Below are positions 7,730 through 10,700 of a DNA stretch of 64,000 nt, piece by piece; within the stretch, counting starts at the first letter, position 1; each line of letters starts with the position of its first letter. The position numbers were made by a program, and so were the translations under genes. Source of the DNA: Lysobacter soyae. GTDB taxonomy: Bacteria; Pseudomonadota; Gammaproteobacteria; Xanthomonadales; Xanthomonadaceae. The notes under the pieces are model-generated. The model was given only the letters and a program-made list of their open reading frames with translations, ran no database searches and was not told the origin of the DNA. The DNA is taken from NCBI RefSeq assembly GCF_019551435.1, contig NZ_CP080544.1, forward strand, positions 1,860,001-1,924,000, read 5' to 3'.

Positions 7730-10700
7730 ATGAAAACCCTGGCCCAAAGCTACGATCCCGCATCCATCGAAACCCCCATCTATCAGCGATGGGAGGCGGG
7801 CGGCTGGTTCGCCCCGCAAGGCAACGGTCCTGCTTACACGATCTTGTTGCCGCCCCCGAATGTCACCGGCACGCTGCACATGGGTCATGCGTTCCAGCAC
7901 ACATTGCAAGATGCATTGATCCGCTATCACCGGATGCGCGGCTATCGCACTTTGTGGCAACTCGGCACCGACCATGCCGGCATCGCGACAGAAATGGTGG
8001 TGAGCCGCAATCTTGCGAGTGAAGGCAAAGGCGAAACCCGCGATTCCCTGGGCCGCGAAAAATTCATCGAAAAAGTGTGGGAGTGGAAGGGTCAATCAGG
8101 CGACACCATTGAGCGCCAGATGCGCCGTTTGGGCGCCAGCGGCGATTGGACCCGCACCACCTTTACCATGGATCCGATGGCGGTGGATGCCGTGGCCGAA
8201 GCCTTTGTGCGTCTGCATGAGAAGGGTTTGATCTATCGCGGCAAGCGCCTGGTGAACTGGGACCCGGTCTTGAAGACGGCCATTTCCGATTTGGAAGTCG
8301 AAAATCGCGAAGTGCCGGGCCACATGTGGCATTTCAAATATCCCTTGGCCGGTGGCGAAACCTACGAATACATCGAACGTGACGCGGAGGGCAACGTCAC
8401 CTTGCGGGAAACGCGCGATTACATCTCGATCGCCACCACGCGACCGGAAACCATGTTGGGTGACGGTGCCGTGGCTGTCCATCCGAACGACGCGCGCTAT
8501 GCGCCGATCGTCGGCAAGCTGTGTGAGATCCCAGTGGGACCGAAGGCGCATCGCCGTCTGATTCCGATCATCGCCGACGAATATCCCGACCCGGCCTTCG
8601 GCTCAGGCGCGGTAAAGATCACCGGTGCGCACGACTTCAACGATTACCAAGTCGCCAAGCGTCACGGCATTCCCATGTATGCATTGATGGACGACGATGC
8701 CCGCATGCGCGCGGACGGCTTGTCCTACGCAGAGAGTTCGGCGATTGCGATCCGTGCGGCGCGCGGCGATGACGTTGGCGACGTGTCGCAAGTGAATTTG
8801 GTGCCCGACGAATTGCGCGGCCTCGATCGCTACGAAGCACGCAAACGCGTTATTGATACCGTCACATCCGAAGGCTTGGCGGTCACCGATGCGGACGGCC
8901 AGCCGGTAGTCGATTCGAAACCGATCATGCAACCCTTCGGTGATCGCAGCGGACAAGTGATCGAACCCTATCTGACCGACCAGTGGTTCGTGAAGATGGA
9001 TGATCTGGGACGTCGCGGCATGGAACTGGTCGAATCCGGTCAGGTGAAATTTGTGCCGGCGAATTGGATCAACACCTACCGCCACTGGATGGAGAACATC
9101 CAAGACTGGACCATCTCGCGCCAACTTTGGTGGGGCCATCGCATTCCCGCTTGGTTTGATGACGCCGGCAATGTTTACGTTGCGCGCACCGAGGCGGAGG
9201 CCTACGCGCAAGCAGGTTTGACGCCGGGCAAAGGACCGCAGCTGCGTCAGGATCCGGACGTGTTGGAAACGTGGTTCTCTTCGGCCATGTTCCCGTTCAG
9301 CACCATGGGTTGGCCGAAAACCGAACTGCAAGCAGATCGGGGATTTGAGGAGTTCCTGCCGACGTCGGTGTTGGTCACCGGTTTCGACATCATCTTCTTC
9401 TGGGTGGCGCGCATGATCATGATGACCGACGCGCTGACCGGCCAAGTGCCGTTCCGCGATGTCTACATCACCGGTCTGGTGCGCGACAAAGACGGCCAGA
9501 AGATGTCGAAGTCGAAAGGCAACATCATCGATCCGCTCGACATCATCGACGGCATCAGTGCCGATGCCTTGGTGGGCAAGCGCACGACCGGTTTGATGAA
9601 GCCGACCGACGCACCGAAGATCGAAAAAGCGACGCGCAAAGAATTCCCCGATGGCATCGCCGCCTACGGCGCCGACGCATTGCGCTTCACGATGACGGCA
9701 TTGGCAGGTCAAGGCCGCGACATCAAGTTCGACATGGCGCGCGCGGAAGGCTACAAGAACTTCTGCAACAAGCTTTGGAACGCGACGAAGTTTGTGTTGA
9801 TGAACACGGAAGGCAATGCCGCTCCCCTTCTCCACGCAGTGGAGAAGGGGCCTCCGAAGGGGGCGGATGAGGCGCTCTCCACCTGGCCCATCACCGACCC
9901 AGAAAAATGGATCCTCGCCCAACTGGCAAAAACCAGCGCCGAAGCCGCCGAACATTTCGCCAACTACCGATTCGACCTGCTGGCGCAAACCCTGCACGAA
10001 TTCGCTTGGAACGAGCTCTGCGACTGGTTCCTCGAATTGGCCAAACCCGCCTTGTCTGGCAACGATGAAGCCGCCGCGAACAGCACACGCCACACGCTGC
10101 TTTATGTGATTGAGGCCGTGCTGCGTTTGCTACATCCGGTTATTCCCTTCGTCACCGAGGAACTGTGGCAGGCCGTAGCGCCGCGTCTTGGCATTGCCGG
10201 CGAGACGATCATGACGCAGCCGTACCCGCAAGCGGCTGACATCGATGCCGCGGGCTACGCACAGGCCAGCCAAGACATCGAATGGCTGAAGCAAATGGTC
10301 GTTGCGATCCGCCGCATCCGAAGCGAGCTGGGTGTACCGCCTTCGAAGCAAGTGAAGCTGCTCGCGCGCGACGGCGGCGCCGAAACGATGGCGCGCTTGC
10401 AGCGGTTCGATGCCCAACTGCGTTTTCTGACCCGCTTGGAATCGATCGACGTCATCCAATCGGAACCCCCGGCATCCGCAGCGGCGCGCGTGGGCGATTT
10501 GAATGTCTTTGTGCCCCTCGAAGGTCTCGTCAATCTGGACGCCGAACGCGTGCGATTGGAAAAAGAGCTGAAGAAGGTGTCGATCGAGCGGGCCAAATCA
10601 GAAGCCAAGCTCAGCAGCGAAACCTTTGTTGCCAACGCGCCCGCGGCCGTGGTCGAACAAGAACGCACCCGGCTGGCCGAATGGAATGCACAATTCGAGG

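Follow-up and report, generated by a model that had tools for sequence, protein, structure and literature searches.

In-frame copy of a dispersed palindromic repeat in valS of Lysobacter soyae, and recurrent repeats in the same loop across the Lysobacteraceae

How does a short palindromic repeat come to lie, in frame, inside a gene for an essential enzyme? The question is raised by valS, the valyl-tRNA synthetase (ValRS) gene, in a 64,000-nucleotide stretch of the Lysobacter soyae genome, referred to here as the window. The genome is a single contig of 2,135,137 bp, of which the window covers positions 1860001–1924000; window coordinates are counted from its first base. An earlier note on this DNA had proposed that a mobile double hairpin is read as protein within valS. 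Our analysis leads to the view that the insert is very probably one copy of a selfish repeat family whose members selection has filtered into permissive loops. The two features at issue are:

7667–10732, plus strand: valS, encoding valyl-tRNA synthetase; translation may begin at 7727, and the HMGH and KMSKS signatures are intact.
9821–9876, minus strand: repeat unit in valS (66.8 bits), corresponding to residues 699–717 when the protein is taken to start at 7727 (1001 residues); 19 residues, in antisense reading.

Apart from the insert, the valS product appears to be an ordinary ValRS. It matches the Pfam families PF00133, PF08264 and PF10458, and 1gax is its top match both by sequence and by fold. 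Similarity places it in the family Lysobacteraceae, with Luteimonas mephitis as the best named match (76%); in the closest congener of the source genome, G011, ValS is 90% identical. The unit is in frame with the open reading frame (ORF) 7667–10732. The sequence reported earlier at 9824–9876 is present as described, the full unit being 9821–9876. In minus-strand order it consists of AGCGCCTCATCC, a first hairpin and then CCCCTTCTCCAC..GTGGAGAAGGGG. In terms of structure, AGCGCCTCATCC at its 5′ end is accompanied by a short hairpin of G+C and by a CCTTCTCCAC..GTGGAGAAGG hairpin.

The genome has 41 copies of the 12-mer AGCGCCTCATCC, far beyond chance, and 0 of a reversed control. Thirty-three of the 41 sites were inspected as sequence (30 loci and three in the window), and one of these, L005, has no element. 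A covariance model was trained on 32 units; AGCGCCTCATCC is invariant at the 5′ end of these, which had themselves been picked by that 12-mer, and two hairpins follow it. Run against the genome at E ≤ 0.01, the model gives 116 matches; the 95 that are full-length and reach at least 41 bits were retained, and the other 21, weaker or partial, were set aside. The 95 units are spread over 58 places and have a core length of 48–55 nt (mode 50). Twenty-eight places hold a single unit and 30 hold two or more, with a plus-minus pair in 23 places and a minus-plus pair in eight. A single unit, with its two internal hairpins and unpaired 5′ tag, has no terminal inverted repeats of the kind that mark miniature inverted-repeat transposable elements (MITEs); such symmetry is found in inverted pairs only. 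The 12-mer counts and the 66.8-bit match thus bear out the earlier description of a dispersed palindromic repeat lying in frame in an essential synthetase.

Comparison with congeners indicates that the unit was inserted. Where the ValS of G011 has NTENVVFSGTPEPVTDAEKW, the L. soyae ORF reads a 36-residue stretch, a net gain of 16 residues (loop of 60 against 44) rather than the roughly 18 first estimated. Among 16 same-genus genomes the insert is absent from all 15 readable ValS loops, that of G008 not being read; the possibility that these residues are conserved in all relatives is thereby ruled out, and the alignment with close relatives gives the result that the earlier note had anticipated. 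The family itself is similarly restricted. At E ≤ 1e-5 and with stricter filters, 94 units are found here, none in 15 of the 16 congeners and three weak ones in G008, so the family has expanded after the split from G011 or has arrived since. Lower-scoring matches are abundant in some other genera (85 in G017, 94 in G022 and 53 in G033), and model matches are present in 16 of 60 genomes overall. ValS loop length does vary across bacteria, as it would if slippage or drift had lengthened the loop and its likeness to the repeat were due to chance. This explanation is refuted by the 66.8-bit DNA match to a family of 95 units and faces a relative, G011, that is 90% identical over ValS and has no insert; we give it virtually no credence.

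The AlphaFold model of ValS assigns residues 702–716, within the insert, a predicted local distance difference test score (pLDDT) below 50. The insert is accordingly predicted to lie in a disordered loop joining two helices where the anticodon-binding part of the enzyme begins, and the model supports the loop position suggested from the sequence.

The valS unit is not the only one inside a gene. Flanks were read for all 58 places, a place being counted as in-gene when an open frame and coding signal were present on both sides. Eight of the 58 places (12 units) lie in frame in seven genes, namely hemD, a joined ketosynthase pair, a fused isobutyryl-CoA mutase (two places), a Nudix-ThiE fusion, purL, valS and a small ORF at 11218–11622. 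The carriers in or reaching into the window, other than valS, are:

1–1163, minus strand: 5′ part of purL, whose in-frame unit lies just beyond the window at genome positions 1859309–1859360.
11218–11622, minus strand: small ORF, the holD-like gene of the earlier note, in which two units lie in frame in inverted arrangement; the G011 homologue is without the insert.
11369–11424, plus strand: first unit of that pair, antisense to its own strand and read as AVLLHNVEKVPPEGADEAL.
11424–11479, minus strand: second unit of that pair, sense, read as DAPHPALRATFSIKDGEGKA.

At all eight places the unit is absent from G011 and from the other homologues compared, G011 being the sole comparison for purL, the Nudix fusion and the 11218–11622 ORF. 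In the ketosynthase pair (337702–339888, L170) one ORF spans both enzymes and the linker consists of three units in a row; in G011 there is also one ORF, with an unrelated linker, and in most other relatives compared the ketosynthases are separate ORFs. Neither the PurL insert nor the first mutase insert lies in a stretch that aligns with the solved homologues (6jt9 and 4xc6).

The remaining 50 places are outside genes by ORF-based calls, one of them overlapping a gene end. Because a simple gene caller marks 83% of the window region as coding, eight in-gene places are far fewer than random placement would give. Split pseudogenes that would betray frameshifting units were not seen among 26 Pfam-searched flanking proteins (hand-picked and co-directional, from a subset of the 50 places); 22 of the 26 have a Pfam family, and no two neighbours have one in common. 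The other units in the window are:

47956–48010, plus strand: intergenic unit (56.3 bits).
51354–51407, plus strand: unit (76.1 bits), probably lying 5′ of a gene of the fumarylacetoacetate-hydrolase family; an open frame of that gene crosses the unit upstream of the Pfam match.

Elsewhere in the genome, an ORF that looks like one for a resistance-nodulation-division (RND) transporter takes its final codons and its stop from the unit at 976206–976259 (L141). Some 70 nt downstream of one intergenic unit there is an S-adenosylmethionine (SAM) riboswitch (71.2 bits, L142 1623–1734). A search of four loci matched no known RNA family to the element at gathering score, and the remaining sub-threshold matches in those loci were taken as chance.

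The manner in which the units are read is also informative. In sense, frame 0 is open in 92 of the 95 units, frame 1 in 92 and frame 2 in 90; in antisense, the DEA phase is open in 87, the MRR phase in 82 and the third frame in eight. The 12 intragenic units are read in sense frame 0 (SASS) five times, in antisense DEA five times, and once each in sense frame 1 and antisense MRR. Two of the five open phases therefore take 10 of the 12 units and seven of the eight places (p about 0.003 and 0.009, values that are post hoc and that treat units within pairs as if they were independent). The reading phase is biased, not unique: the expected phase preference in genes exists as a bias towards two phases, and a single phase is ruled out by the four in use. 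The valS unit and the 11218–11622 ORF do have a phase in common, as the earlier note had pointed out, with a 17-residue reading and LLHNVEKVPPEGADEAL; this LLHxVEK phase is found in these two and, as a variant, at the first mutase place. The product of the 11218–11622 ORF has no Pfam family match, so the name holD-like remains tentative.

Two adjacent hairpins, as are predicted here, could in principle be skipped by the ribosome (bypassing) or removed at the RNA level. The in-gene copies are in frame and free of stops, which would be needless if they were removed, yet ORF-based detection favours exactly such copies. We hold skipping or removal to be extremely unlikely.

Repeats in the ValS loop are not confined to L. 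soyae. A short ValS query run against 149 family genomes gave 141 matches. Loops were opened where they had about five or more extra residues (minus the broken matches G070 and G076), together with a few more, and the rest were judged by match span. A recognisable repeat lies in the ValS loop of 24 of the 141 genomes, the kinds being assigned by eye. This element or cousins of it are found in nine genomes (G000, G017, G160, G102, G094, G162, G168, G129 and G032), a CCCTCTCC-type hairpin in one (G083), repetitive extragenic palindromes (REPs) with GTGGGAG or GTAGGAG in five (G029, G077, G100, G093 and G165) and a CCCGGGTGCGC..ACCCGGG palindrome in one (G019). Heptamer-like tracts are found in eight genomes, with GGGAATC or GTGAATC in G022, G123, G135, G065, G107, G133, G158 and G138; those of G065, G107, G133 and G158 are GTGAATC/CATTCAC, not GGGAATC. 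One ValS loop, on contig L032 of a metagenome-assembled genome, combines two kinds: an R1-like unit (33.9 bits) and a CCCTCTCC-type hairpin.

Three kinds were examined for dispersal within the genome. Each of eight carriers has 15 to 110 matches to the cousin pattern, with 0 control matches; the REP pattern has 63 to 246 matches in four of five carriers and three in G093; and the G019 palindrome has 21 matches in G019 and none in four congeners. The cousin pattern is also present in congeners whose ValS loop is empty (13 matches in G154, 16 in G175 and 27 in G120), so carrying a repeat does not imply its location in ValS. Non-carriers of the REP in ValS likewise contain the REP pattern (88 matches in G127, 13 in G152, 48 in G018 and 86 in G145).

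A quick maximum-likelihood tree was made from 94 ValS bodies stripped of the loop. On it, the presence or absence of a long loop requires at least 19 changes, of which 16 are forced by well-supported branches. Recognisable repeats, with six unassigned long loops excluded, require at least 16 changes, or 13 if the heptamers are also left out; by kind, there are eight changes for cousins, five for heptamers and four for REPs. Seven genomes with long loops (G021, G096, G180, G148, G097, G170 and G080) were not assigned a repeat and are excluded from the 24; the tree places the first six together in a separate group, and G080 is outside the tree sample. The loops of G148, G097 and G170 (L297–L299) are long and contain a GTCGCCACGCGCCCAGGTGGCGAAC-like partial palindrome. 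In G072 the extra ValS length lies outside the loop. The ValS of a contig titled Bacillus subtilis (L034) groups with Stenotrophomonas pictorum on the tree, and that assembly is probably mislabelled or contaminated.

Among 35 full-length ValS sequences, no other loop has several private inserts of at least 10 residues, save a segment near residue 350. That segment was considered as a like case and rejected: it is long in 14 of the 35, with a clade-like distribution, and is not repeat-like by eye. A second recurrent landing site for repeat-like hairpins is provided by the two loops of the fused mutase, the first holding CCCTCTCC-type hairpins in G029 and G028 (L237, L229) and the second holding other hairpins in G029 and G024 (L237, L227).

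Recurrence of this kind could mean aim rather than tolerance, with the mobilising machinery favouring a DNA feature at the valS (and mutase) loops. Inserts of several kinds directly follow the loop's Phe-Ser codons in G017, G160, G083, G168, G029 and G100, the two mutase loops hold different repeat-like hairpins in three genomes, and R1-like units at the valS loop are read in the DEA phase in eight of 10 genomes, the source genome included. Against such a preference, GGGAATC-like tracts and GTGGGAG REPs need not have a common mobiliser, the window's copy and others lie elsewhere in the ValS loop, and protein tolerance predicts equal recurrence. We consider target preference unlikely. Alternatively, the hairpin or peptide could help the host, for example through control of the valS mRNA or a new protein contact, which would be in keeping with recurrence at one site of an essential gene and with the reading-phase bias. 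The insert varies in sequence and length between sister species, however, many close relatives have none, 50 of the 58 places in L. soyae are outside genes and the loop is predicted to be disordered. We regard an adaptive role as very unlikely, and the earlier suggestion of a family domesticated into proteins finds little in its favour, with most places outside genes and no sign of benefit. Recurrence alone does not separate target preference from host benefit. The bolder proposition that covers them is that the ValS loop and the two mutase loops are true landing sites: either unrelated repeat systems would be guided, in core genes of the Lysobacteraceae, to one and the same handful of bases, or the inserts would be beneficial, and core enzymes would then serve as shared, repeatedly used harbours for selfish hairpins. 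To this proposition we allow a small but real chance.

We favour selfish spread filtered by protein tolerance. A non-autonomous two-hairpin repeat of about 50 nt, often in inverted pairs, would have multiplied recently in this lineage, presumably by transposition. Copies landing in genes would nearly always be purged by selection, and those surviving there would be in frame, stop-free, mostly hydrophilic and situated in linkers or loops. The ValS copy would then lengthen a loop by a net 16 residues, which are translated but remain inert and disordered, and the loop would be generally permissive, other repeats having landed there independently in many Lysobacteraceae.

Several observations weigh against this reading or blur it. 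The ValS model has two further low-confidence segments (residues 183–190 and 407–411), and the RNA fold of the valS unit (−30.8 kcal/mol) is mildly better than that of shuffled sequences (z −1.95). The G011 sites are too diverged for base-level alignment, so that a target-site duplication, as expected of a MITE, is not definable. Relatives carry stretches of their own at hemD, at the ketosynthase pair and at the second mutase place, so that the unit there has replaced or joined an already variable segment. Gene calls are based on ORFs, codon scores and homologues, by which a frameshifting insertion would count as intergenic. The grouping of ValS-loop repeats is also uneven: at E ≤ 1, model R1 matches L296, L032, L294, L295, L134 and L290, and L300 weakly (E 0.21, the value of the G129 cousin loop), and at that threshold does not match L285 (G160), L301 (G032) or the CCCTCTCC-type L287, the unmatched cousin loops being assigned on likeness by eye and the cousin pattern search.

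Nor was a mobiliser found. The genome's single Y1_Tnp match (1485827–1486150) lies in a 3.3-kb locus without any unit and is flanked by unrelated inverted repeats, and as a candidate REP-associated tyrosine transposase (RAYT) for the element it was rejected on these grounds. A perfect 31-nt inverted repeat in the window (53910–53940 and 53971–54001) has the core GGGGTCAG/CTGACCCC. The inverted repeats beside the Y1 transposase match (L369) also contain GGGGTCAG, and the window's inverted repeat at 53910–54001 may thus be left over from the element to which that transposase belongs.

With this element, the range of protein-inserted palindromic repeats widens to a further repeat family. The ValS loop amounts to a repeated natural experiment, in which one loop of an essential enzyme has received several kinds of repeat, with at least 16 changes on the tree. 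It allows target choice and protein tolerance to be asked about directly, along with the origin of protein segments from non-coding repeats.

Precedents for such insertions exist. Rickettsia palindromic elements (RPEs) are described, in the parts of PMC2229807 and PMC10969869 that deal with them, as short palindromic repeats found between genes as well as in frame within conserved ones. The element here, a dispersed palindrome with in-frame copies at eight places in seven genes, resembles them and may be regarded as their analogue in another bacterial group, as the earlier note had proposed. RPEs are about 150 bp and encode one conserved peptide per family, whereas the units here are about 50 nt, are read in several phases and are mostly intergenic, and at ValS different repeat families reuse one site. 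ERIC and NEMIS elements are likewise small non-autonomous repeats fused in frame to genes but, in the account of them in PMC2229807, are about 100–200 bp and mostly have terminal inverted repeats, unlike a single unit here, and target duplications. In two Xanthomonas species, according to the relevant part of PMC4692102, 11% and 7% of the GGGAATC heptamer repeats are intragenic; these repeats are tandem G-rich tracts that resemble, by eye, one kind of ValS-loop repeat elsewhere, not the window's element.

The closest parallels are the GTAG/CGTC REPs, which Di Nocera et al. (2013) (PMC3733652), in the section on intragenic copies, report to be read in frame as part of many proteins, dimers of 20–30 residues being frequent. 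Inverted dimers are common among them, as among our units (a plus-minus pair in 23 of 58 places). The units here differ in that the aligned set does not match a GTAG/CGTC tag with one 20–40 bp hairpin, having two hairpins and no such tag, and in that no unit accompanies the Y1 (RAYT) locus. The same section mentions "tRNA synthetases in X. oryzae" among intragenic REP carriers; in it the synthetase is unnamed and family-wide recurrence at the ValS loop is not described. It also gives recB, where different REPs occupy about one site in two Xanthomonas species, which, as far as that section goes, is the nearest precedent for a shared landing site. A ValS repeat hot spot was not found in print in the open-access literature. 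That palindromic repeats can lie in frame within genes, outside Rickettsia too, is already established, on the evidence of the intragenic section of PMC3733652; the present repeat family and the recurrent landing site in ValS look new.
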